20,126 bases of DNA from the IMG/VR virus record IMGVR_UViG_3300025425_000213, positions 1 through 20,126 of that record. The stretch is one strand, 5' to 3'. A model generated the notes under the pieces. The model ran no database searches, was not told where the DNA came from, and saw nothing but the letters and a program-made list of their open reading frames with translations. The position numbers and the translations under genes were made by a program. Below, piece by piece: positions 1,212 to 18,709 of this stretch. How positions within the stretch are numbered: the first letter of the stretch is position 1; the number at the start of each line of letters is the position of its first letter. Source of the DNA: a virus.

Positions 1212-1436
1212 ATGAATACACAAAACACACCGGCAACCCGCCACGTTTATTACACATGGTTGGAAAGAAACGGCGGGTACGCCAAGGATGAGACGCTACG
1301 CGACAAGTTGGCAGGGATGGCAATGCAGGCATACCTATCCGATCCAGATTTTAGGTGGGGCGCAGAAGATGCAACGAGGTACGCAGCGGAGCACGCATAC
1401 GCCGCCGCCGACGCCATGTTGAAGGTGCGCATCTAA
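1212..1436 (+). CDS. Small hypothetical protein upstream of the polymerase
   Basis: This 74-residue protein has AAGGA at 1199-1203, eight bases before the ATG. It has an aromatic N-terminal half (HVYYTWLERNGGY) and an alanine-rich helical C-terminus (AAEHAYAAADAML). Helices of the latter kind are frequent in small phage proteins encoded near replication genes. The stop codon overlaps the polymerase start as TAATG at 1434-1438, so the two genes are probably translationally coupled. No function is recognised. Confidence 0.75.
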   Translation: MNTQNTPATRHVYYTWLERNGGYAKDETLRDKLAGMAMQAYLSDPDFRWGAEDATRYAAEHAYAAADAMLKVRI

Positions 1437-3415
1437 TGAGTAAACCGTTCGACGAAATCATAACTGTTGACTTCGAGACGTATTGGGACAGCAGAACGTT
1501 TACGCTTAGCAAGATGACCACTGAGGAGTACATACGTGATGAAAGATTCACCGACTTCGGAGCATGCTTCCATCTATATGGAAGCGACCAACCAATTGAA
1601 TGGGTTAGAGGATGCGATATACCTAGATACGTTTCGGGGGTCGACTGGGGACGAACCGCACTTCTCGCCCACAACGCCCAATTCGACGTGTCAATCCTTT
1701 CTTGGAAATATAACGTCACGCCAGCCTTCATTCTCGACACCCTATCAATGGCACGAGCTTTACGCGGCGTGGAGGTTGGCAATTCCCTCGCGCGGTTGGC
1801 AAGCGCTTTTGGCCTTCCCGCCAAAGGGAAAGCCCTACATTCGACTGATGGACTACGAGAACTGGATGAGCAGATCGAAGAAGAACTCGCGGAGTACTGC
1901 AAGCACGATGTGTTCTTGTGCGAACACATATTTTCAGCCCTTCGAGTTGGATACCCTACGAAAGAACTTAGGCTTATAGACATGACGCTTCGGATGTACA
2001 CGGAGCCGACATTGGTGCTGGACGGCCTGATGCTACTTAACGCTATTGAAGAGGAGAGAGAAACCCGTGAAGCCTTACTACAAAAGCTCGACGTGGAGGA
2101 GAAAGACCTCGCGTCGAATCCAAAGTTTGCTGCCATACTTAACACGCTTGGGATTCCTGCCCCGAAGAAAATCAGTAAAACTACCGGCAAAGAAACACTT
2201 GCTCTGGCTAAGAACGACGCCATGTTCCAAGCGCTCCTTAATCACCAACGTGACGACGTTGCCCTTCTTTGTGAAGCGCGCCTTCGGGTTAAATCAACCA
2301 ATGAGCGAACCCGGGCACAACGGTTCTTCGACATCTCGCAACGCGGGAATCTCCCGGTCCCACTCTCGTATTTTGGGGCTCAAACTGGGCGCTGGTCAGC
2401 CAGTAAAGGTTCAGCCATCAACATGCAAAACCTCAAGCGAGGATCGTTCCTGCGTAAAGCGGTTATGGCTCCCGAAGGGCATCAACTCGTCGTCGGCGAC
2501 TTGTCGCAAATTGAACCACGCGTTCTTGCGTGGTTGGCGGATCACGAAGACATGCTGGACATTTTCAGGGCTGGAGGTGACCCTTACGCATTGTTCGGCG
2601 CTCAAATGTTTAACACACCGGGACTTACGAAAGATTCACACCCGGACCTCCGACAATCTGCTAAGTCTGCTCTACTCGGGTGTGGGTACGGCCTCGGTTG
2701 GGCCTCGTTTTCGGCGCAACTAGTTGTAGGGTTCCTTGGTGCCCCACCCGTCATGTACGACAAGGACTTTGCTAAAAGACTAGGAGTTAATAAGAGGTTC
2801 ATTGAGCGTTTTGTGGAATGGGATGACAACATCCAGAAGATGGAGGAGATACCCCACACCTGCACAGAGCAGGAGTTGTTGATCCATTGCGTAGCCGCCA
2901 AGAAGATCATAGACATATACCGGGCCACCGCCCACCCAGTGGTGACGTTCTGGGAGATGTGCTCGGGGCTGCTGCAAAAAAGCCTTTACGGTGGGGAGGA
3001 GGTGGTGTATAAATGTTTAACGTTCCGCAAGGAGGAGATAGTACTCCCCAGCGGGATGAGCCTGCGCTACCCGAATCTTCGCCGCGTTAAGAACGAAGAG
3101 ACCAAGCGCACGGAATGGCTCTACGGAGCCGCAGGCACCCCACCTACTAGGTTGTATGGAGGTAAGATTACGAACAACATTACGCAGGGCGTAGCACGTA
3201 TTGTAATGACTGACGGGATGCTACGGGTTGAAAAAAGACACCCAGTCAAGGGGACAGTGCATGACGAACTCATTGCTGTCGTACCTAATGCTGAGGTAGA
3301 GGACGCTAAGCCTTGGGTCTTGGCGCAGATGACTATGGAGCCACGGTATTTGCCGGGCATCCCGCTAGGCGCTGACGGTGGCGCGCACCGTAGGTATGGA
3401 GAAGCAAAGCAATAA
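1436..3415 (+). CDS. polA-like: Family A DNA polymerase with 3'-5' exonuclease
   Basis: This is a replicative phage polymerase of 659 residues. The DEDDy proofreading domain is complete: Asp12 and Glu14 in VDFET, AHNAQFD with Asp84, and YCKHD with Tyr154 and Asp158. Polymerase motif A is GDLSQIE (Asp355), motif B is RQSAKSALLGCGYG (Arg406, Lys410, Tyr418), and motif C is HDE at 609-611. There is no 5'-3' exonuclease domain, as in T7 DNA polymerase and other phage relatives. The residue aligned with E. coli Pol I Phe762 is Leu414. ATG 1436 overlaps the upstream stop and has AAGG ten bases upstream; longer in-frame starts would only translate the previous gene out of frame. The primase-helicase and SSB-like genes downstream are its likely partners. 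Confidence 0.97.
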   Translation: MSKPFDEIITVDFETYWDSRTFTLSKMTTEEYIRDERFTDFGACFHLYGSDQPIEWVRGCDIPRYVSGVDWGRTALLAHNAQFDVSILSWKYNVTPAFILDTLSMARALRGVEVGNSLARLASAFGLPAKGKALHSTDGLRELDEQIEEELAEYCKHDVFLCEHIFSALRVGYPTKELRLIDMTLRMYTEPTLVLDGLMLLNAIEEERETREALLQKLDVEEKDLASNPKFAAILNTLGIPAPKKISKTTGKETLALAKNDAMFQALLNHQRDDVALLCEARLRVKSTNERTRAQRFFDISQRGNLPVPLSYFGAQTGRWSASKGSAINMQNLKRGSFLRKAVMAPEGHQLVVGDLSQIEPRVLAWLADHEDMLDIFRAGGDPYALFGAQMFNTPGLTKDSHPDLRQSAKSALLGCGYGLGWASFSAQLVVGFLGAPPVMYDKDFAKRLGVNKRFIERFVEWDDNIQKMEEIPHTCTEQELLIHCVAAKKIIDIYRATAHPVVTFWEMCSGLLQKSLYGGEEVVYKCLTFRKEEIVLPSGMSLRYPNLRRVKNEETKRTEWLYGAAGTPPTRLYGGKITNNITQGVARIVMTDGMLRVEKRHPVKGTVHDELIAVVPNAEVEDAKPWVLAQMTMEPRYLPGIPLGADGGAHRRYGEAKQ

Positions 3416-6688: not shown

Positions 6689-7666
6689 ATGAGTAACGTA
6701 ATGCTGTTTTCCCCATCAACCGTTCCTGCCTTCGCTCGTAACAACGAGCTGTCAGATACCGCCAAAGCCCTAACGGGTGGTAATGCCAGCGGCTCCACAA
6801 CTAAGCGCATCTCCATCAAGGGGGGTGTGTTCCGTTTGGTAGCTGGCGGCAAAGAAATTGCCACCGTTGATGAGAGGTACCTCGACATAATCATTGTTAA
6901 GGCGGCGCCTAAAGTCAGCCGTATTTTCTACGGCAAATCCTACGATGCAGACAACATCACAGGCCCTGACTGCTGGAGCAACGACGGGGAAACGCCCGAG
7001 ACAACCATAGAGACCCCGCAGTTTTATAACTGTGCTGGATGCCCCCAGAACCAAGCCGGTTCAGGTAACGGTAACAGCCGCGCCTGCCGCTTCCAACAGC
7101 GCTTGGCCGTGGTGTTAGAGAACAACCCTGACGGAGACGTGCTCCAGTTGACGCTTCCAGCGACAAGTATTTTTGGTAAAGAAGATGGGGATAGGCGAGG
7201 ACTGCAGGCATACGCCCGCTACTTGGCTGCACAAAGCCCACCTGTCAACCCCGAGCAGATTGTTACCCGCATGAAGTTCGACATCCAGTCAGAGAGCCCT
7301 AAGCTGACTTTCCAGCCCCAACGCTGGTTGACGGAAGAAGAGTACGAGGTCTCCTTGAAGCAAGGCACTAACCCTGATGCCGACCGCGCAGTCGTAATGA
7401 CTGCGGCGCAAGCGGACGGTGTGAAGCCTACTCCGATGAAAATCGCTGGCGCTGCCCCCAAGCCCGTTGCCAAGCCTATGGGCGAGATGATGGACGAAGA
7501 CGACACTGCTGCGGTGGCTGAAGTCAAAACCACCAAGGCCAAGACTAAGGCGGTAGCCGACGAGGAAGATGAGCCGGAAGTCCGTAAGGACGAAGCTAAG
7601 CCAAGCGCTGTGCCAGCCAAGAAAGCTAAGTTGGCCGACATCGTATCCGAGTGGGACGACGAATAA
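6689..7666 (+). CDS. Probable ssDNA-binding protein with four-cysteine site and acidic tail
   Basis: This 325-residue protein has three parts. Residues 35-90 are rich in strands (ISIKGGVFRLVAGGKEI). A cysteine site follows with Cys95, Cys115, Cys118 and Cys133 (FYNCAGCPQN, RACRFQQRLAV), which could bind zinc in the manner of T4 gp32. Strand-rich sequence continues to about 215, then a long Lys/Glu/Ala linker, ending in SEWDDE. A folded core, disordered linker and short acidic tip is the plan of phage and bacterial SSBs such as T7 gp2.5. The function is inferred from this layout and from its place between helicase, primase and polymerase genes, not from a clear family signature. The ribosome binding site is weak (AAGAAAG at 6671-6677). 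Confidence 0.7.
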   Translation: MSNVMLFSPSTVPAFARNNELSDTAKALTGGNASGSTTKRISIKGGVFRLVAGGKEIATVDERYLDIIIVKAAPKVSRIFYGKSYDADNITGPDCWSNDGETPETTIETPQFYNCAGCPQNQAGSGNGNSRACRFQQRLAVVLENNPDGDVLQLTLPATSIFGKEDGDRRGLQAYARYLAAQSPPVNPEQIVTRMKFDIQSESPKLTFQPQRWLTEEEYEVSLKQGTNPDADRAVVMTAAQADGVKPTPMKIAGAAPKPVAKPMGEMMDEDDTAAVAEVKTTKAKTKAVADEEDEPEVRKDEAKPSAVPAKKAKLADIVSEWDDE

Positions 7667-7704: not shown

Positions 7705-7983
7705 ATGCCATATTCACAAGGAATAAAAGACAAGATAGCCGCCACACCTAAAACGACCGGAAGTCAATTAGGGCGGTGGGCTATTCACCACGACTTTTCA
7801 GTTGTGCGAATATCGAGGGCTCTGGGCGTCACGCGCCAGACCGTATACAACTGGTTCTTGGGCACGGAAATCTTCCCGGCGTACCGTGATCGCGCCGAGT
7901 GGATGCTCAAGATTTTACAAAGCGCAAACAGCGCAGATGACGCATGGAGAACAGTATGTCAGGAATTGAACCTAAAGCCCTAA
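7705..7983 (+). CDS. Helix-turn-helix DNA-binding protein
   Basis: This 92-residue protein has a clear helix-turn-helix at about residues 32-52: VVRISRALGVTRQTVYNWF, with the small residue, turn glycine and recognition helix in the usual places. It resembles compact phage regulators of the Cro/XRE type. There is no additional domain apart from a C-terminal helix. No Shine-Dalgarno lies directly before ATG 7705; a hairpin fills that space, and no better in-frame start exists. It could bind the palindromic promoter at 6225-6252 two genes upstream and form an autoregulated unit, which is an inference from position. Its 3' end overlaps the next gene by 28 bases. Confidence 0.82.
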   Translation: MPYSQGIKDKIAATPKTTGSQLGRWAIHHDFSVVRISRALGVTRQTVYNWFLGTEIFPAYRDRAEWMLKILQSANSADDAWRTVCQELNLKP

Positions 7984-8141
7984 GCAATGAAGAGTTGATC
8001 CGCTATGCCGAAGACATGGCGCATGGTGCAGGCATGAGCAAAGCCTTTCAACTTGAATTGACCCACCGCTTCACGATGCTTGTTGATGCCGCAACGACCT
8101 ATCGCGCAGACACCCGCCAGCTCGAACTCCCCCTGTTTTAA
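7956..8141 (+). CDS. Small protein with C-terminal sliding-clamp-binding-like motif
   Basis: This is a 61-residue protein. ATG 7956 is preferred over ATG 7944 because GGAGA at 7946-7950 is then correctly spaced. The body is one or two helices (SNEELIRYAEDMAHG, LTHRFTMLVDAA). The extreme C-terminus is RQLELPLF, fitting the QLxLxL form of the bacterial beta-clamp-binding motif; E. coli Pol IV likewise ends in such a hexapeptide. The gene lies 14 bases upstream of the primase-helicase, so a role linking phage replication to the host clamp is plausible but unproven. I do not recognise a named family. It is too small to be an enzyme. Confidence 0.75.
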   Translation: MSGIEPKALSNEELIRYAEDMAHGAGMSKAFQLELTHRFTMLVDAATTYRADTRQLELPLF

Positions 8142-8155
8142 ACCCGAGGATTTAT

Positions 8156-11026
8156 ATGACCCCGCTTGAATTCCTAGCGGTTGTTTTGCCGTCCCCGGAC
8201 CACGGGTATTACTGTGTGGCAGAACTCAGTACAAGAAAAAAAGAGCACCGATTCAGTCCGGCGCTTGAAGAATTGGAGGAACATGTAGCGCGCTGGGATA
8301 GCGCAGACTGTGACGTTTATTTTGCATTGGCGACTTTTGAGAACGGCGACACCAGAGAGGCAGTGAACGCCCAGTACCTACGCAGCTTGTTCGTGGATAT
8401 GGACGGCTACGAGACCAAGAAGGCCGCAGTAGAAGCGATAAACACATTCATGGATAGGGTAGGGCTAGACCTGCTTGGTGCGCCCTACATCGTGGGTTCT
8501 GGTGGCGGCTTGCACGTCTACTGGCCCTTCACGGAAGACGTGGCTGTTGATAGGTGGAAACCCTTAGCTGAAGGATTGAAGCGCCTATGTAAGCAGGAAG
8601 GCTTGAAGATCGACATGACGGTAACAGCAGACGCCGCCCGAGTCCTTCGCGTACCCGGCACACGCAACCACAAGAAGAAGTACGGCACCCCCAAGCCTGT
8701 GCGCATACTGAGCGAGGGAGACACCTTCGCGTTCGAGGACCTTGAGTCGCTCATCATCAGCCAGCTAAAGTCGCAGGTGGTACCCATGCCTACGCCCACC
8801 CTACGGCTGGAAGGGGTCAGGCCAACCAGTGTCAGTTCTGTATCCACGATTGCACCACTGTTTCAAAACAGCGTCACCAAGTTTCGCACCATCTATAAAA
8901 AGACGCAGGCGGGTACAGGTTGTGCCCAGCTTTCCAATTTCGTAGAGAACGCGGCAGAGGACGGTATGGAGCCCCAGTGGAGAGCGTGGCTGAGTATTGC
9001 CCAAAAGTGCGAAGACGGCGACAAGGCGGTGATATGGCTTAGTGACCTGCACCCCTACGACACAGACCGCATGAACCAGAAACTGGCGGAGATCAAGGGG
9101 CCCTACCCCTGTGTGAAGTTTGATTCCGAGAACCCCGGTGTGTGCGACAACTGCTCCCATCGCGGCAAGATAACCAACCCCCTAGCGCTTGGCAGAGAAC
9201 TGGACTTGGTGACCGAGCCCGTGGTCATGGAGGTAGCGATGCCTGCGCAGATACCGATCAAGGTACTACGCCCAGAGCCGCCCCACGGGTACGCTTATGG
9301 TAAGAACGGTGGTGTGTTTATGGAGAAGGACTCTGTGGACGATCAGGGTAACGCCATAAAGAAGCAGATCATGTTGTGCCAGTACGATTTGTTCCCCGTA
9401 GACATCCTGAACTTCAACGGCGTCCACGAGGTGCACCTACGCGCTATACGCAGCGGTCGGGTACAGGACATCACAGTGGCACAGGAGAGCATCGCCAGCA
9501 AGGATACAACCATCAAGACGCTAGCTAGTCAGAACGTCATGGCGGCGTTTGGTTCGGGCAATGACAAAAACCTGTACGAGTATGTCCGCGCCTGTGTGGA
9601 GAAGCTAAGCGTGGAGCGTGCGCCTATTGCGCTACCTACTAGCTATGGCTGGCAAGATGATGGTTCGTTCGTGTTTGCCGGGCGTATATACAGCAAGAAC
9701 AAGGAGCCAATATCGGTACCCATGTCGGGGCTGGAGAACATCACGTCGAACACCCAGCCTACAGGGACACTAGAAAACTGGCAGAAAGTTGTACAGCTTT
9801 TAATTCGTCGGCGGTTGTGGGACCACTTAGCGGTTGTGCTGCTGGGTGCTGGCGCGCCCCTTATGAAGTTCACCAAGTTGTATGGCATGACCATTCACTG
9901 CGCGTCTAGGAATTCAGGTACAGGCAAGAGCTTGGCGTTGGATACCGCCGCCGCTATATGGGGGCACCCGGTGCACTACCGCACGGGTTCAGGCACCTCC
10001 GCAGTGGCTATGCAGCAGCGCCTTGGTTTGCTTCGCAGCTTGCCGTTGGTCACGGACGAAATCACCACCAACAACCGCAAGGACTTCGAGTGGTTCCCAG
10101 CCTTCTTGTTTAGTATGAGCGAAGGTCGCGGCAAAGAGCGCATGGAGTCCGGGTCCAACAAAGAACGTCTGAACCTGTCTACGTGGGCCACGCTTGCCAT
10201 CATGTCCTCCAACCGGAACGCCGTAGATTACCTAGCGGGGGAGCGCCAGCACTCATCTGAAGGAGAGCTAAGGCGTTTGTTGGAATTTTCTATTGACCAG
10301 AAGTTACAGTGGACCGATGACGAGATCGAGGTCATCAAATCTTTGCAGGACAACTACGCCTTGGCCGGGGTAGAGTTATCACAGTACTTCGTGGACAACA
10401 CGGAATACATAAAGAAGCTGGTAGACGACACGACCCGCCAGATGTACAAGCACTACAACGCACCACGAGACGAACGCTTTTGGATGGCGGCCATAGCTTG
10501 CGGGGTTGTTGCCGGGGTTCTTTTCAATGGCAAGCACACGAATCTGGCTGAAATCCCCATGCAAGAAATCATGGTAGCGTATGGTCGAGCCGTAGAGACT
10601 ATGCGCGCCAGTATCCACGGTGGTTCGGTCAACGCGGAAGACGTGCTGAACTCCTACATCCAAGAGAATCAGGGCAAGTTTGTTGTCGTTAAGTATGGTG
10701 AGAGAAGTGGGCTTCTGGCACATTTCCAAGACGGCACCGAGGTCGGCAGGAACACCGCGCGGCAGGAGGTCATGGGGCGTGTGGAGCACGGGCACACGGC
10801 GGGATATATTGACTTCTACATTGAAGAGCGCTTACTTCGCGCACACTGCTCGACCATGAGTTACAGCTACCAAAACTTCAAGCAGGAAATGCAAGAGTTG
10901 TTTCAGATACGCTACCAGAAAAAGAAAGACTTGCTTGCCAAGACCGATGGCCCTACGATGCGCGTAGCCGCGATTCAAATAAGTAGACGTGTTGATGAAG
11001 ACGACGCCCCACTCACACAAAACTAA
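8156..11026 (+). CDS. Primase-helicase fusion (AEP/PrimPol-like primase plus DUF927-type ATPase)
   Basis: This 956-residue protein has primase features at the N-terminus: FVDMDG with Asp81 and Asp83, SGGGLHVYW with His120, and ARVLRVPGTRNHK at about 161-173. Together these match the three motifs of archaeo-eukaryotic-type primases found in phage and plasmid primase-polymerases. A middle region has Cys319, Cys330, Cys333 and His335, a possible zinc site. The C-terminal half resembles DUF927 helicases: Walker A SGTGKS with Lys591, Walker B LVTDE with Asp634/Glu635, and the sensor-like MSSN segment. It should prime and unwind at the phage fork. GAGGA at 8146-8150 sits five bases before the ATG. 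Its 3' end overlaps the next gene by 32 bases. Confidence 0.9.
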   Translation: MTPLEFLAVVLPSPDHGYYCVAELSTRKKEHRFSPALEELEEHVARWDSADCDVYFALATFENGDTREAVNAQYLRSLFVDMDGYETKKAAVEAINTFMDRVGLDLLGAPYIVGSGGGLHVYWPFTEDVAVDRWKPLAEGLKRLCKQEGLKIDMTVTADAARVLRVPGTRNHKKKYGTPKPVRILSEGDTFAFEDLESLIISQLKSQVVPMPTPTLRLEGVRPTSVSSVSTIAPLFQNSVTKFRTIYKKTQAGTGCAQLSNFVENAAEDGMEPQWRAWLSIAQKCEDGDKAVIWLSDLHPYDTDRMNQKLAEIKGPYPCVKFDSENPGVCDNCSHRGKITNPLALGRELDLVTEPVVMEVAMPAQIPIKVLRPEPPHGYAYGKNGGVFMEKDSVDDQGNAIKKQIMLCQYDLFPVDILNFNGVHEVHLRAIRSGRVQDITVAQESIASKDTTIKTLASQNVMAAFGSGNDKNLYEYVRACVEKLSVERAPIALPTSYGWQDDGSFVFAGRIYSKNKEPISVPMSGLENITSNTQPTGTLENWQKVVQLLIRRRLWDHLAVVLLGAGAPLMKFTKLYGMTIHCASRNSGTGKSLALDTAAAIWGHPVHYRTGSGTSAVAMQQRLGLLRSLPLVTDEITTNNRKDFEWFPAFLFSMSEGRGKERMESGSNKERLNLSTWATLAIMSSNRNAVDYLAGERQHSSEGELRRLLEFSIDQKLQWTDDEIEVIKSLQDNYALAGVELSQYFVDNTEYIKKLVDDTTRQMYKHYNAPRDERFWMAAIACGVVAGVLFNGKHTNLAEIPMQEIMVAYGRAVETMRASIHGGSVNAEDVLNSYIQENQGKFVVVKYGERSGLLAHFQDGTEVGRNTARQEVMGRVEHGHTAGYIDFYIEERLLRAHCSTMSYSYQNFKQEMQELFQIRYQKKKDLLAKTDGPTMRVAAIQISRRVDEDDAPLTQN

Positions 11027-11213
11027 ACTGTTCCCTTGGGCAAAGCTGCATAAGGGGCAGGGGTTCTTTATCCCCTGCCTCAACCTTCAGGAAATGACAG
11101 GCGCCGGTCTACGAGCCGCCGTGTCCCAAAAGATAACCGACGCCAAGGCCTACTCCGCAATCAGGACAGGTTTACTTGGCGTCTGGTTTTACCGCCCCAA
11201 GGCTAGGGGCTAG
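10995..11213 (+). CDS. Small conserved-looking phage protein, last of the plus-strand block
   Basis: This 72-residue basic protein starts at ATG 10995, inside the end of the primase-helicase gene; GTG 10989 and TTG 10992 in the same frame are alternatives. No clear Shine-Dalgarno is visible, so it probably depends on coupling to the upstream gene. Residues 22-32 (KGQGFFIPCLN) followed by a basic helix and LLGVWFYRPKA resemble small phage proteins with a GDSFFVP-type opening and an R-rich helix, often found near replication genes. The function is unknown. A ten-base-pair stem (11054-11081) lies within it. Its stop overlaps the stop of the opposing giant gene. Confidence 0.68.
   Translation: MKTTPHSHKTKLFPWAKLHKGQGFFIPCLNLQEMTGAGLRAAVSQKITDAKAYSAIRTGLLGVWFYRPKARG
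11054..11081. other. GC-rich stem-loop near the convergence point
   Basis: GGGGCAGGGG (11054-11063) pairs with CCCCTGCCTC (11072-11081) through ten base pairs including one G-T wobble, with loop TTCTTTAT. It lies inside the last plus-strand gene and 128 bases beyond the stop of the minus-strand giant gene. Read in the minus direction the stem is followed by TTATG, only a weak T-run. It may end or stabilise the minus-strand transcript, but it does not meet the usual terminator pattern. Confidence 0.35.
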
Positions 11214-14200
11214 GACAGATCTTTAATACGCCGCGACATGCGAATCTCAAGGCGTTTAATTTCCTGAACCCTGTCACGCTTTTGATCGGGGGTCAGGGTC
11301 TTAGATGCCGCAATACCGCGTTTAAGTTTAGCCAACTCGCCCATCTCTTGACGGAAAGAACCGCCAAAGGAGTTAAGCGCAATTTCCGTAGAGTACTTCT
11401 GAGCAAACGCTTTGGCATCGGCTCCCCGGCCTTCGGCAATCATCGTGTTGTACGTACGTTTGGCCTGTTGGAACTCCTCGAGCCTATCGTACGCAGCATT
11501 GACCACACCCCGTCCATCAGCAGGTTGAAACAGAGTGCCGATAACTGGGTACTCGTTGATGAGTTTAGTTGGGCGCTCTGCCTGATCTGTCAACGGACGG
11601 ATGGCTACGTTAGGTATCTGTAGTAGGGTAATACCCAATGACCCTGTGTAGCCCCGGACAAGATGCTCAACCTGCATTGGGGAGACCGTGCCAAATGTAG
11701 CCGCGCTCAACATCTTTGCCAGCTCGGTGGTGTTGGGGCTGTAGCGCTCGCTTTTGGTAAGTCCCTGCATGCGATCAGACTCGACGGGGGAGCCAGTAAA
11801 GAACGAGTAGTTAGTTGCCACCTCAACAATAGGCTTCATGCCTTGTGGCATGCCGACAGGCACTGTCTGGTAAGCCAAAGCACCAAACGCCTTCATGGCT
11901 TCCCCGGCTTTCTGGTCGCCAAACGCCACGTTGAATACCATTTCTGGGATTGACTTAAACGCGTAGCCCAATTCAAATGGGATTGGCACACGCAGACTTG
12001 CCTCCACACCGGGCAGTGGGATGAACCAGTTGAGCGCGCGCTGTTCTGGCGTTGCGTTCTTATAAGACTCGTCGTCCTGCATCAGGGCCGCGTAGGCCAT
12101 AGTGCCTGCCGCCATCATAAAACCACGCTTGAGCATTAATGCTTGGACGTTCATTTCCTTCTGGAACAGTGACACCCCTTTACCGGCTCTCCACAACACA
12201 TCCAAACCCTGTATCTGAGCGTTAAAGAACGGCACCATCATGGACATGAACTGCATGCTGGGAGACACACCGCGACGGCTAAAGTTCATAGACTCCAGCG
12301 AACCAAGCAACGCCTGCATGTGGGTCATGCCCTTTTCGCGGTACATGTTGTACAGAACAGCGCGGGTTGATGAGTCGCCTTGAATAGCAAACCCTTCAGC
12401 CTTAGCAACGAGTTTCTGCCAGCCAGCCTTACCCCCAACGGTATCGCGCAAGATGCGCGTGATGTCTTGCTTGTCGCCAGTAAACACGTTACTACTGATA
12501 GCGCCTGCTTGTTGCAGGATACTTTGCGTTTCGCTCTTGCCGCCTACCATCTTAGTCAGCTCTTTAAAGGAACTAGCGATTGGAGCGAAATTGCCGCCGG
12601 TAACCATCCACGCGTTGAGCGGGTCACGAATGGCTTGACGCAGCGCGTAGGTAGGCATTATTGTCACTGTCTTACGCAACAAGTTAGCAGGGTAGCTCAT
12701 CAAACGAACAACCGCTGGGATAGTGGTCTTTATGCCCTCCAAGCCTTTAACCAGCAGATCGGCTGGAACCCCATACGCGTCATCAATAACGGCGTGCTTC
12801 ATTTCGCCGCCTTCACGGAACCGTACGATATTGGTGCCCGCAGGGCCTGATCCTTTGCGGATTTCAGCGCTACCCATTTTCTGCAGAACGTACGCCACGT
12901 CTTTTGTCTGGATATTGCGCATGCCCATATCAAGAATCATGCGGGTGTTCTGCAACGCGCTCTCAAAGAACGGCAGGATAGAGTCCTCGCCACCAATTAA
13001 CTCTTTGAGGTACGGCTGGTTCTTAAGATTGCCGATCTTAACAATTTTCTCACGGTCAATCATCAGCTCTACTTCTTCTCCGTTTTTACGGTAGAACGGG
13101 ACGTAATCTAGCGCTGACAATCTAACAGCCTCATCACGAGACATTGCGCCTGAGTCAGACAGGAACGTAAGCAAGTCTTTGTTGTACTGGCGGTATTGTT
13201 TACGAGCAGACTCAAAAGCGTCTTTAATTTTTGAGTTGTTTTGCACGTCCTTGTTAACCGCGTCCCAGTCAGCCTTGGCTTGCTTGGCGTCTTTAAAGTT
13301 CAACTTGTCCCAGCCGATTTGCCCCTGACCTGCGCGAAGACCTGCCATCCATGTAGTAAACATTTCTTCAGCGGCTTGTTCATTACCAATACCCGCGTCA
13401 CGCAAAGTCTCCGCAATACGGGCAATGTTGTCGCCTTCAACAGCCTCAAACGTGTGGGTGCCATCGGCGGCCTTAACGCGTCGTACAACACCATTAGAAG
13501 CAGCTTGCGCTACGTATTGGTTGACCTGTTCGCCAAAGCGCATGTAGTAGAGCGTCTGGAACAGTTGCATGTCGGGGATAACTCCGCGCTCGACACCCTT
13601 GCGCAACAGCTCCTCGATAGGCGCAAAGCGATCCAGTAACTGAGTGCGCCAAGCAAGCGCCCTATTTGTTTTACTGCTTTCTGGAGCGGCTGCGGCGGGG
13701 CTAAACAGCGACGCCATAAACCCGGAAGTCCGCGCAACCTGTCGACCAGCGGCGGCTTGCGCTTCTTTAGAGATACCAGCGGCAAACTTTGGCTCGGTGT
13801 TAGGGAAAACCCCACGTAGCACAGACGCGACGTTGTCGATCTGTCTGCCTTCAGTCATCGGCATTGCTTTTTCAAACAGGTTCAGGATGTTCTGTGTAGC
13901 TTGCTTGTTAAAGTCAACGCCTTCCTTCAGCCCCAAGAACGCCAGCACCTTGTTAATAAAGCGGGTAACCATGTTACCCCCGCCTGTCCACTTAACATTT
14001 GCCAACTTGTTCTGCAGCACACGGTTGGACAGCATCTCAGAGGCAAATTCAGCAATGTTAGTTATGCCGTACTCACGCGCAAGATTGGTGTTCTTTTTAA
14101 CCGCCGCAAACATAGACTCCAGCTCAACACGCGCCGCTTTCTGAGCGTCGGTCAAGGTGTCTATTGGCGCTTTTAACAATCGCAGCGTAACAGCGTGGAT

Positions 14201-17200
14201 CATCTCGTGCAAGATGACTTCTTCGCTCACTGCCTCTTCGTCAAACTGCATTACCGCTTTATTGGACTCGTAGCTACCCGCCGCACGTTTGCCGTCCACG
14301 TACAGGTCTGAGACCATTTCAACTTTAACGTTCCCTAGCAGCGTAGCCAGAAGTCCGGACAGCTTACGCACAAAAGGCGTAGCCCCGCTCTCGGCCAGTA
14401 ACTCCGCAGCCCTTACAGCATCGCCTGAACGAAGCGCTTTGATGACGTTAACCTTTACAGGCGTGAATGATGGTGCATCGTATGCCTGAGAGTTTTCCCG
14501 TAGATAGTTGTCTTCTGCAGAGTCAACGTCTTCGTCTATAACGTCGGCAATATTCTTCCTACCCTTCGTTACTTTCTGCAGGTCCGCTGCCAACGCTTCG
14601 GCCTCTGTCGCATCCTGCCTCGCTAGCTCAGCACGGAGTTTTTGACGCCATTTTGAATTAGATGTGTCAATGCCAAACGTTTCTTCTGCAATACGCTTAT
14701 CTTCAGCAATCTGTTCTTTAGTGCCGCGTGTACGAGTTATAGTACGTTTAGCCGTGTCAAGCGTTTTCAAATCGGCCTTCATTTGGCGGCGATTTAATTC
14801 CGCAGTTTGTCCTTCCGGTGACAACTTGCCGAACTCTTCAATAGACATGTCGGCAGGCGCAGCCATCTCAGCGCTTGTAATAGGCACATTGCGCTGCTTA
14901 ATACCTCGTGCTTCCGATAAGCGCTGACTTGTTCCCGTACGCCCCAACCCCGCCTTACTCTCCTCAGTGCCCCCGCGCAGGGACGCCGGAGCAGCCGACT
15001 GCGTCCGAGTAACAGGTCCAATAGCCCGTTTGCCTTTTGCGGCTTTGCGCTCTTCCAACACATCGTCCACAGAATTCAGTATTTTCTGTAAACGAGCAAG
15101 GTCTTCTTGAAGCGTCAAGCCTTTAGCGCTTAACGCTGCCTGTTTAGCAGTTGAACCGGCCTGACGGAACTTCAACATGCGCTGCTCTAACTCGCGGCGA
15201 AGGCGACCAGCGGTTTCTTTTGCAGTTCTTTCTGCGTCTTCGGCTTGCGCAACTCGTGCGCGTTGTACCTTGGCTTCGTCTGCCAATTGTTTAACGGCCG
15301 CAGGGGGTACGTTTGCCGCCTTCTTTGCTTTATCTAAATCTTTTGTAAACCGATCCAGTATTTTCTGCTCGAACTTAACATTAAAGTCTCTATACGCGGC
15401 AACCACAACCGTAGAGCTGTCGACGGTCTCCATGTACTTGTCTTGCACAGTGGCAAGCGCGGTTTCTTGTGTTTCAATTTCTTCAAGCAGGGAGTCGATG
15501 CGTTTCTGTACGTCCGGCGTAATGCCTTCTTGATTAGCCTGAGCAAACGCTTTCTGGATGCCTTCTTTGGCTGCAACAAGTCTTTTATTAGTGGCCTCAA
15601 CCATGGGGCTGAAGATGGCTTTTCGAGCTGCCTGTATATCAGCAAGTGCAATAGCGCGGGCACCATACATTACCTCTTGCACTTCTGCGCGTTGGTCTTC
15701 AACTTTCCTAAAAACCTTAGCAACTTTTTCTTTCTTTTTTAAGTTCGCGCTTTGCTCCGCTGCGGCTTGTTGTTTTTCAAGTTTAGCAATGTCCTCCTTA
15801 GCCTTAGCGACAGCGGCTTGCCCGTTACGAACGGCAGGAGAACTCATCAAAGCGCGGAAGTTTTTGCGAATAACACCAAGCTCCTTGTCCTCACGGCGAC
15901 GTTCTGTCGTGTTGTCGAACAAAGACTTCTGCCCGGCTTCGCGTTGCTCAGTAGCTGTCGGCTCCACCGCTTTGAGCGTGTCGTTGATGGCTCGCAAGTC
16001 CGACATGCGCGGTTGACGGTTAGCTAGTATGGCATCTACAACACCCTCAACTGCATCGAGTAGGTCGCGTGAAGCCTTGCCCTCATCCATGATGTCGGCA
16101 GCTTCGTTCAGCACGTCACGTGCCGCAGGGCGCATCTCCTTCATCTTAGCCATCTTATTACGGACAAATTCCGTGCGACGAGCCAACTCCCCCTTCAAGG
16201 TTGTGGCTGTTTCGCCTTTGGCTTCGGAGGTCTTCCGCGCTTCTGTCTCTGCAAACTGCGTACGAAGCAGTGGTTTTTCTACCTGTGCCTGCCGCTTGCC
16301 AAACAACCCATCACGAATTTTAGGCAGTGCGCTAAGGGAATCGATAATAACTTCCTGCGCAGCACGAGGGGCACCAAACGGACGCTCTGCCAGTGGGCGA
16401 GAGTCCCGTGTCTCTAACACCGCGTTTTTAATAATCTGTCCGCTACGCATCTGAGCAGGGGCAACAATCCGCGTTTCTTTATATGCGTCACTGCGGTCCG
16501 CCGTAGATCGCGTGGAGATTTCTTCCAGCGCAGCGTTCAAAATGCCGTCCATCTCATCTGCAGCTTTGAGCGCTTCGTCCCTAGTCAGGGCGGGACGGCC
16601 TGCGGCACGACGGTGAGTTGCGGCTTCTCGCAACGCCGCCTTGATGTACTTGGCGCGAGCTTCGTTGGCGTTGGACTGCACATTTGCTAATGTGTCATTG
16701 AACAGCGTACCGCTGGTGCCCTGTCGATACAGCCCTGCGCGAATATCCGTCAGTGCGCCAGTGAACTCGTTAAGTGCGGTGTCTTGGTCCGCGCGCGCGT
16801 CAAACACTTGCTTTAAATAACCATCACTTTTTTCGCGGATGTCGTTAATCTGGTCGCGTATGTCGTCAGCCTTCTCTCTATTAGAGACCACCATGCTGTT
16901 AGACAGCTTATCAACCTGAGTCAGCAGCGTGTTGTATTGATTGTTCGCCACCTTGAACTGCTGGCGCGGCATTGGTGTTACGGTTTCTGAAACCGGCACA
17001 ATGTCCGTTGCTCCCACACCAAACAAATCAGTAATGGCTTTGGCAGCGCCAAAAGAAAGGCGCTCGGCTTCAACAGTTGAGGCCCCCGGTGTCTCAGATT
17101 CTTGGCCGAAACGCTGTAATGCCGCAGTCTCGGCGTCTATGACCTCCCGTGTACGGGCGCTATCCTCGCGCCCAGCCCCCATTTGCTTTCCAAGAAGATT

Positions 17201-18709
17201 ATCGTCTTCACGGCGACGTGCGGCTAAGTCCAGCATGGGGGCGTTTTTACCAAGCATAGTGCTCTGGGCACCGCCGACATCGCCTAACTGTTGTTGCAGC
17301 TCATCAATTCTGTCAACAAGTTTGTCCGCTTTAGCAGGATCGAAGCTGGGGCCTGCCATCTTAGACAAGGACTCCTGCGCTTTAGCAAGCTGGGTCTGCA
17401 ACTGCACTTGTTGGCTAGCGGTGTCTTGAAATCCTGACGCTTTTAATTGCGCGTTTACGGTGCCTAGCTCAGAAGTCATGACACTACGTTGGTCACGGAG
17501 TTTTTTGTAGGTCTCCATGTCCTGAGCAGTAATGGCATCGCTCATTTGCTGCTGGTTGTCGTCAATGACACGCTCTAAATACTGGCGCTGCTCCATGAGC
17601 TGAGAGCCTTCTGGGGGAGCGGCTTCTTGTGATGCTTGGGGCTCAACAGCCTCCATACCGGGCAGAGTGCTCTGCGCTTGAGTACTTGCTTCAACATAGG
17701 GAACCGCACGAGTCTCGGTGCCGCCCTCAAGAAGCGATAGTTGATCTAGACGGGCTTGTTCAGCGGCTGTGGCTTCGTCAGCTACGCGTCGGTCTTCTGT
17801 AGCTACTACGTCCTTGGCCCGGCCTTGGGCACCAATGCGACTACCTGCCCCAAACAAACCACCAAGCGTGGCACCGCCGATGAAGTTGTCTAGGTACTCA
17901 CCGCGAGCTTGCTCGTCCATCATGTCGAGACCGGCCTGCATACGCTCAAATACCTGCTGACCCGCTTCGGTCAAACCCTCGATACCGGCGTTCTTGGCAA
18001 CCTGAATACCTCCGGATTTTACTAACCCTGCGGCAGAGGCTTCAGCTAATTTACGGGCAGCGCCGAGCGCTTCTTCTCTAGTTGCCTCACGGCCAAACTT
18101 ACCTAAGAGTTTATTTACGCCGGGCAGGAAGCGTAAGGCGGCAGTATCTAGCGCGGCTTGTGGGATAGCGGCAGCTACGGCAGCGCCCAGTTTAAGGTCT
18201 TCAGGGGCGGTGCCCTCTTCCAACTGGCGTGATAAGTTAGAACCTGTAAACTGAGTAGCAGACGCGGCCCCAGCGCCAAGCAAACCGGCGGCAGTAGCGC
18301 CAAGACCAAGGGCCCCAGATACAGGAGCGGTGCTTGCCAGACCAGCGGCAACAATAGGCGCAGCCATATAAGCAGCCGATTGTCCCAACAATCCCGTTAC
18401 GTAATCAATAGGATCTTCGGAGAACTCTGCTTGACGGTATATTTGCCCAGCTTTTTCGCGCTGTGCCTCAGAGTATTCCGCTCCGCCTTCGATACCCAGC
18501 CCGGCACCGATAGCGCCGATGTCACCTTTTAGGTTCTCAAAGCCTGATTTAACACCGGCGATAAAACCTGTTTCAGGCTCCGCTTTCGGGGGACCTAAGC
18601 CAAAGGCTTCAGGGAACTGTTCTATGGCTTTGGCGTATGCCGTTTGCTGGTCCATCCCTTCAGGGACTTCAATAGAGTTGCCGTTCGGAAGGGTTAGATA
18701 TTGCGCCAT
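11210..18709 (-). CDS. Giant virion-associated polyvalent protein with metallopeptidase motif and LPD38-like region
   Basis: This protein has 2499 residues. The N-terminus (MAQYLTLPNGNSIEVPEGM) is a short module common at the start of large phage proteins. A glycine/alanine-rich hydrophobic stretch follows at 106-155, then long charged, helix-rich coiled-coil sequence to about 1450. HEMIH at 1501-1505 with EFASE (Glu1554/Glu1558) fits the zinc site of polyvalent-protein metallopeptidases. From about 1680 to the end is the region seen in LPD38-type polyvalent proteins, with NFSRRG at 2142-2147 and MVPFFNAQIQG shortly after. Such proteins are carried in virions and injected with DNA, like T7 gp15/gp16. 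GAGGA (complement of 18721-18725) lies eleven bases before the ATG. No RNA-polymerase motif was seen. Confidence 0.85.
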   Translation of the reverse strand: MAQYLTLPNGNSIEVPEGMDQQTAYAKAIEQFPEAFGLGPPKAEPETGFIAGVKSGFENLKGDIGAIGAGLGIEGGAEYSEAQREKAGQIYRQAEFSEDPIDYVTGLLGQSAAYMAAPIVAAGLASTAPVSGALGLGATAAGLLGAGAASATQFTGSNLSRQLEEGTAPEDLKLGAAVAAAIPQAALDTAALRFLPGVNKLLGKFGREATREEALGAARKLAEASAAGLVKSGGIQVAKNAGIEGLTEAGQQVFERMQAGLDMMDEQARGEYLDNFIGGATLGGLFGAGSRIGAQGRAKDVVATEDRRVADEATAAEQARLDQLSLLEGGTETRAVPYVEASTQAQSTLPGMEAVEPQASQEAAPPEGSQLMEQRQYLERVIDDNQQQMSDAITAQDMETYKKLRDQRSVMTSELGTVNAQLKASGFQDTASQQVQLQTQLAKAQESLSKMAGPSFDPAKADKLVDRIDELQQQLGDVGGAQSTMLGKNAPMLDLAARRREDDNLLGKQMGAGREDSARTREVIDAETAALQRFGQESETPGASTVEAERLSFGAAKAITDLFGVGATDIVPVSETVTPMPRQQFKVANNQYNTLLTQVDKLSNSMVVSNREKADDIRDQINDIREKSDGYLKQVFDARADQDTALNEFTGALTDIRAGLYRQGTSGTLFNDTLANVQSNANEARAKYIKAALREAATHRRAAGRPALTRDEALKAADEMDGILNAALEEISTRSTADRSDAYKETRIVAPAQMRSGQIIKNAVLETRDSRPLAERPFGAPRAAQEVIIDSLSALPKIRDGLFGKRQAQVEKPLLRTQFAETEARKTSEAKGETATTLKGELARRTEFVRNKMAKMKEMRPAARDVLNEAADIMDEGKASRDLLDAVEGVVDAILANRQPRMSDLRAINDTLKAVEPTATEQREAGQKSLFDNTTERRREDKELGVIRKNFRALMSSPAVRNGQAAVAKAKEDIAKLEKQQAAAEQSANLKKKEKVAKVFRKVEDQRAEVQEVMYGARAIALADIQAARKAIFSPMVEATNKRLVAAKEGIQKAFAQANQEGITPDVQKRIDSLLEEIETQETALATVQDKYMETVDSSTVVVAAYRDFNVKFEQKILDRFTKDLDKAKKAANVPPAAVKQLADEAKVQRARVAQAEDAERTAKETAGRLRRELEQRMLKFRQAGSTAKQAALSAKGLTLQEDLARLQKILNSVDDVLEERKAAKGKRAIGPVTRTQSAAPASLRGGTEESKAGLGRTGTSQRLSEARGIKQRNVPITSAEMAAPADMSIEEFGKLSPEGQTAELNRRQMKADLKTLDTAKRTITRTRGTKEQIAEDKRIAEETFGIDTSNSKWRQKLRAELARQDATEAEALAADLQKVTKGRKNIADVIDEDVDSAEDNYLRENSQAYDAPSFTPVKVNVIKALRSGDAVRAAELLAESGATPFVRKLSGLLATLLGNVKVEMVSDLYVDGKRAAGSYESNKAVMQFDEEAVSEEVILHEMIHAVTLRLLKAPIDTLTDAQKAARVELESMFAAVKKNTNLAREYGITNIAEFASEMLSNRVLQNKLANVKWTGGGNMVTRFINKVLAFLGLKEGVDFNKQATQNILNLFEKAMPMTEGRQIDNVASVLRGVFPNTEPKFAAGISKEAQAAAGRQVARTSGFMASLFSPAAAAPESSKTNRALAWRTQLLDRFAPIEELLRKGVERGVIPDMQLFQTLYYMRFGEQVNQYVAQAASNGVVRRVKAADGTHTFEAVEGDNIARIAETLRDAGIGNEQAAEEMFTTWMAGLRAGQGQIGWDKLNFKDAKQAKADWDAVNKDVQNNSKIKDAFESARKQYRQYNKDLLTFLSDSGAMSRDEAVRLSALDYVPFYRKNGEEVELMIDREKIVKIGNLKNQPYLKELIGGEDSILPFFESALQNTRMILDMGMRNIQTKDVAYVLQKMGSAEIRKGSGPAGTNIVRFREGGEMKHAVIDDAYGVPADLLVKGLEGIKTTIPAVVRLMSYPANLLRKTVTIMPTYALRQAIRDPLNAWMVTGGNFAPIASSFKELTKMVGGKSETQSILQQAGAISSNVFTGDKQDITRILRDTVGGKAGWQKLVAKAEGFAIQGDSSTRAVLYNMYREKGMTHMQALLGSLESMNFSRRGVSPSMQFMSMMVPFFNAQIQGLDVLWRAGKGVSLFQKEMNVQALMLKRGFMMAAGTMAYAALMQDDESYKNATPEQRALNWFIPLPGVEASLRVPIPFELGYAFKSIPEMVFNVAFGDQKAGEAMKAFGALAYQTVPVGMPQGMKPIVEVATNYSFFTGSPVESDRMQGLTKSERYSPNTTELAKMLSAATFGTVSPMQVEHLVRGYTGSLGITLLQIPNVAIRPLTDQAERPTKLINEYPVIGTLFQPADGRGVVNAAYDRLEEFQQAKRTYNTMIAEGRGADAKAFAQKYSTEIALNSFGGSFRQEMGELAKLKRGIAASKTLTPDQKRDRVQEIKRLEIRMSRRIKDLS

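Follow-up and report, generated by a model that had tools for sequence, protein, structure and literature searches.

A conserved phage microprotein with a putative C-terminal clamp-binding motif, a candidate adaptor to the host DnaN clamp

A microprotein of 61 residues, encoded in the replication region of an uncultivated phage, ends in a putative clamp-binding motif, and its sequence makes it very probable that it binds the host clamp DnaN through the canonical pocket. The protein appears to be built from a predicted hairpin body, a fast-evolving linker and a terminal clamp peptide. It constitutes a new family, while the binding of clamp peptides is in itself a known principle. We propose that it serves as an adaptor between the replication machinery of the phage and the clamp of its host.

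The window is the whole 20,126-base IMG/VR virus record IMGVR_UViG_3300025425_000213, which is probably a fragment. The list of open reading frames, together with PHROG and Pfam profile searches, places the replication region in the plus-strand genes between 1355 and 11026. These encode, in order, a family A DNA polymerase with 3′–5′ exonuclease (1355–3415; PF00476, E 3e-24; the true start may be later), a PD-(D/E)XK exonuclease, an SNF2-type helicase, a Pam3 gp33-like protein, a conserved protein of 325 aa with an acidic C-terminal tip (6689–7666), a small helix-turn-helix (HTH) protein (7705–7983), the microprotein (7956–8141) and a primase-helicase with a phage primase-like N-terminus and a DUF927 domain (8156–11026). 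The HTH protein gives weak Pfam matches to HTH_23 and HTH_28, below the cut-off, and has relatives in 156 locus records. The 325-aa protein belongs to phrog_27714, whose function is listed as unknown in PHROGs. Its lysine/acid-rich tail has the conserved tip ...VSEWDDE (...VSDWDDE in relatives), and the counterpart in Pseudomonas phage Rollin is also acidic at its tip (...AGWDD). These tips are reminiscent of those of ssDNA-binding proteins, and from this likeness we infer that the 325-aa protein may play a similar role. The close relatives L003 (5065–5544) and L004 (1277–1756) have an extra ORF of 159 aa between the genes of the 325-aa and HTH proteins, which is missing from the window and from L005–L007. 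On the minus strand a giant protein of 2499 aa (11210–18709), probably virion-associated, contains two internal stretches that resemble clamp motifs, QLSLL at residue 323 and QKSLF at residue 927; the second is QQSLNLLF in the single aligned relative.

The original prediction of an ORF at 7956–8141 ending in QLELPLF is confirmed exactly. Its 61 codons (MSGIEPKALSNEELIRYAEDMAHGAGMSKAFQLELTHRFTMLVDAATTYRADTRQLELPLF) run on the plus strand from an ATG at 7956 to a stop at 8139–8141, preceded by a Shine-Dalgarno-like GGAG at 7946–7949 within the HTH gene. A second in-frame ATG at 7944 would lengthen the protein by four codons, but 7956 is the likelier start because the GGAG is placed 6 nt before it. 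A Shine-Dalgarno-like site precedes the inner ATG in 155/155 microprotein loci. The conserved MEKNM sequence was considered as a set of functional N-terminal residues, and is better explained by this site together with the overlap with the HTH gene. The microprotein lies in the –1 frame relative to the HTH gene, but its production by programmed frameshifting was likewise rejected; no slippery heptamer is visible by eye in the overlap, and the independent Shine-Dalgarno-like site is always present. The primase-helicase starts 14 nt past the microprotein stop codon, with its own Shine-Dalgarno sequence, GAGG at 8146–8149, downstream of that stop.

How widespread is the microprotein? Searching with the 61-aa protein alone matched only an identical contig. 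The primase as query gave five contigs with a 64–68% identical primase, each of which has in the same place a 66-aa protein that is ~37% identical to the window microprotein and ends in QLDLFK. Scans based on alignments of the primase and of the microprotein added ~150 further loci, and the relatives as a whole come from ~150 metagenomic phage contigs. The microprotein is present in all 155 usable locus records (some of which overlap on the same contig), invariably 13–18 nt before the start of the primase-helicase, and throughout the family the HTH gene overlaps its start. The loci fetched with the primase only (n = 84) constitute an unbiased sample for the microprotein; every one carries it, and in every one it has a C-terminal clamp-binding motif. 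Over all loci the motif is found in 147 of 155.

The phage group, with contigs up to 66 kb and at least 260 primase relatives in IMG/VR, is without a close cultured member; the nearest cultured primases, those of Pseudomonas phage Rollin and the Rhizobium RHph_TM phages, are ~25% identical. No relative of the microprotein was found among 50,697 cultured phage records by tblastn with two family members, and in the distant relatives Rollin, RHph_TM3_14A, Xp15, Kochitakasuvirus R4900a and Effie the replication region has neither the gene nor the motif. A scan of GTDB genomes with the primase gave no match. With the microprotein, the sole match in 84,980 GTDB genomes was L159, a contig of 4.3 kb assigned to a Myxococcales MAG (isolate ErkenSummer); it may be misbinned phage DNA and is not enough to assign a host. 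A single match to a plasmid was judged meaningless. Sixteen members of the family matched no Pfam family, and the search of PHROGs gave no family match, only one PHROG at E 0.098 in one member. Our search of the open-access literature, outside which many journals lie, turned up no account of such a phage microprotein.

The putative motif of the window, QLELPLF at 8118–8138, is of the hexamer type QLxLxL followed by F, and the alignment reveals it as a rare outlier in a family whose norm is the pentapeptide QLDLF plus one residue. A motif is present in 83 of the 89 distinct microprotein sequences, always four residues or fewer from the C-terminus. The variants QLDLF, QLELF, QRDLF, QQDLF, QIDLF, QKDLF, QPELF, QLPLF, QLRLF, QLKLF, QLNLF and QMPLF hold Q1, L4 and F5 and vary at positions 2 (mostly L) and 3, much like the reported tolerance of clamp peptides (PMC11139829). 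QL(S/D)LF is the published clamp-binding consensus, and of the peptides QLDLF binds most strongly; there is little difference in binding between pentamers and hexamers, and position 3 is free (PMC11139829). With weighting of the sequences at 70% identity, which leaves an effective number of 19, Q is conserved at 97%, and L4 and F5 at 100% where the column is occupied (84%). In most members F is followed by K, S, L, I, Q, LDTK or PETK, and since these carry at least one further residue, a free F at the C-terminus is not the feature that is recognised. Thus the proposal of a QLxLxL(F) sequence at the free C-terminus holds for the terminal location of the motif, while the form QLELPLF and the free phenylalanine do not represent the family.

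The motif had been expected to persist while the body drifts, and this is what is found, with pairwise identity among microproteins dropping to 26%. By simple counting over 3,103 pairs of 40–85% identity, which are not independent of each other, the helices have pN/pS values of 0.50 (helix 1) and 0.38 (helix 2), the linker is freer at 0.69, and the five motif positions together give 0.14; at Q and at L4–F5 pN is as low as 0.002, compared with 0.51 in the linker. QLDLF is written in 18 different codon strings, so selection acts upon the peptide, and constraint at the DNA level does not explain its conservation. Two marks of a partner with a clamp-binding motif are found here, namely a match to the consensus in a flexible region and purifying selection among homologues.

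For two different members of the family (A3 and A4) AlphaFold2 predicts a two-helix hairpin, with block means that are mostly 86–95 in the helices. In the window, the predicted helix 1 (L-S/T-N-x-E-L-I...) corresponds to 7986–8021, and helix 2, which column conservation also supports (family consensus LPxxWQxELLRRF), to 8040–8093. The fast-evolving linker at 8094–8117 is predicted to be flexible; in A3 and A4 the tail has no helix and lower pLDDT, with block means of ~68–72. The protein beyond its tail had been described as too short for an enzyme, and no enzymatic domain is found, yet it is not formless; it is a conserved predicted hairpin. A search of the PDB with the hairpin fold gave no match, and the profile hit 9hnh_A (E 0.007), which stems from weak similarity to repeating helical units, was judged irrelevant.

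Two clades lack the motif. The first comprises L122, L150, L157 and L158, whose closest sister L151 still has QLNLF, and the second L127, L129, L130 and L132. All eight records retain the hairpin body and, as far as the contigs reach, the same polymerase, helicases, HTH protein and primase. In a primase tree of 102 sequences (17 loci, all carrying the motif, were left out) the motif occurs on both sides of the midpoint root, so that two losses provide the simplest reading. No convincing replacement motif was found in the motif-less records; QMSLL in L160 was rejected in this role, as it belongs to a short ORF without gene support. Since both clades keep the replication genes without it, the motif is not indispensable. 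That the body is kept where the tail has been lost suggests that the two do different jobs and have separate partners.

It was also predicted that the window encodes no clamp of its own, and in agreement with this a Pfam search of 10 window proteins revealed no clamp domain. Among the relatives the search covered clamps of the DnaN type. With positive controls in each case, the DnaN C-terminal domain PF02768 is absent from 11 relatives of 50–66 kb and PF00712 from the 8 motif-less records, all of which may be fragments. When homologues of 15 window genes were scanned in all loci, a recurrent clamp motif was found only in the microprotein and in none of the other 14; relatives of the family A polymerase have one stray motif in 69, and none that is kept. 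Because no other gene family keeps the motif and no DnaN domain was found, this region shows no link to the host clamp other than the microprotein.

Close parallels are found in bacteria. Escherichia coli Pol II and Pol IV, Pol III alpha and Hda all have QL(S/D)LF or QLxLxL on a flexible tail with negative residues nearby, as does the microprotein. In Pol II and Pol IV the motif is C-terminal, and the window variant is matched most closely by the QLSLPL that Hda carries not far from its N-terminus (PMC11139829). The motifs of Pol III alpha and Hda are internal or N-terminal. The bacterial carriers are polymerases or AAA+ proteins with demonstrated binding, whereas here a phage protein of 61 residues that has no enzymatic domain is proposed to bind. 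The initiator TrfA of plasmid RK2 needs its clamp motif to assemble the replisome (PMC4980987), and thus exemplifies a replication protein of a mobile element that engages the host clamp, as we propose for the microprotein. TrfA is however a DNA-binding initiator whose plasmid uses host Pol III, while the microprotein is a small protein in its own right, alongside a phage primase-helicase and a family A polymerase.

How might the microprotein act? In our preferred reading it would be a dedicated clamp adaptor. The C-terminal peptide, QLELPLF here and QLDLF-x in most relatives, would dock in the protein-binding pocket of host DnaN, while the two-helix body would hold another component of the phage replisome; the primase-helicase encoded by the next gene is the likeliest candidate, with the family A polymerase as the alternative. 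The replication machinery of the phage would thereby be fastened to host clamps on the DNA, with a gain in processivity or targeting to primed sites. The gene, its conservation, the purifying selection upon the motif, its uniqueness among the replication genes and the predicted hairpin with flexible tail support this chain, which taken as a whole we put at a probability of about 0.5. The partner of the body and tethering as the outcome are less certain than the binding of DnaN; because the body is without a recognisable relative in Pfam, PHROGs or the PDB, the choice of partner is a guess from gene order. The broader proposal is tentative, with the odds a shade against it: that a clamp-less phage lineage evolved a stand-alone adaptor coupling a primase-helicase and family A polymerase replisome to host DnaN, making a composite phage–host replisome joined through one detachable peptide.

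In the main rival reading the same peptide would be put to a different use. By competing for the DnaN pocket the tail might deny Pol III, Hda and repair polymerases access to the clamp and so bring host replication to a halt, the phage itself relying on a clamp-independent family A polymerase. Small phage proteins that stop host replication through DnaN or the clamp loader are known, including Twort gp168, G1 gp240 and N4 gp8; the first two, from staphylococcal phages, are directed at host DnaN (PMC3594737) and are similar in kind to the microprotein. The Caulobacter toxin SocB uses a clamp motif to occupy the DnaN pocket (PMC9690074), and by its description resembles the microprotein. The lack of a retained clamp motif in every other replication gene of these phages would also be in keeping with blocking. 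Yet Twort gp168 lacks a clamp motif, by eye shows no similarity to the microprotein, and fills the DNA channel and not the motif pocket (PMC11139829), whereas the microprotein carries the motif. SocB is a host toxin of a toxin–antitoxin pair, in contrast to a gene of a phage replication region. Furthermore, the microprotein adjoins the primase-helicase gene in every locus and does not lie in an isolated early takeover region, and a bare competitor peptide would not need a helical body that is constrained and persists where the tail is lost. The gene order, permanent linkage to the primase and conserved folded body thus lead us to favour tethering over blocking, which we regard as unlikely.

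We consider it improbable that the microprotein is a regulator guided by the clamp, linking the HTH protein or phage transcription to DNA-loaded host clamps and so coupling gene expression or origin firing to replication. The overlap of the HTH gene with the microprotein start throughout the family is consistent with such a role, as is the resemblance of the window variant to the QLSLPL of Hda, and in T4 the late genes are transcribed with the help of clamp-bound factors that have clamp motifs at their C-termini (PMC9690074). These factors, gp33 and gp55, are like the microprotein phage proteins with C-terminal clamp-binding peptides, but they bind the phage's own clamp gp45, whereas no DnaN-type clamp was found here. 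Moreover, contact between the HTH protein and the microprotein would be hypothetical, gene overlap being common in phages, and the Hda-like form is restricted to the window's own lineage.

Still less probable is a convergent likeness to clamp motifs, in which the peptide would be another short motif such as an SSB-tail-like sequence or a PDZ/protease signal. Its C-terminal position behind a flexible and partly acidic linker would suit this reading, but most members have residues after F, and the conserved positions Q1, L4 and F5, with a variable third and mostly L at the second, are those of the clamp motif. Short motifs do arise by chance, and from the amino-acid composition of the window the odds at any one C-terminus are ~5e-4 with the broad pattern and 1.3e-5 with the strict pattern (the microprotein being the sole case among 350 stop-to-stop ORFs of at least 30 aa), yet recurrence in 84/84 loci fetched by another gene, synonymous codon variation and the conserved start site and position leave virtually no room for chance resemblance or a non-gene ORF.

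Phages with a family A polymerase are usually assumed to replicate without help from the bacterial clamp, with T7 borrowing thioredoxin in its place. A core microprotein that carries the strongest known clamp peptide across a large uncultivated group suggests another solution, in which the host ring is borrowed by means of a tiny adaptor. Because this group has kept the clamp peptide through changes in most of the rest of the protein, its phages probably connect to the host clamp in place of a clamp of their own. The likely target of an unannotated ORF of 61 residues can thus be assigned from its conserved tail alone. The family also supplies natural variants of the clamp peptide.
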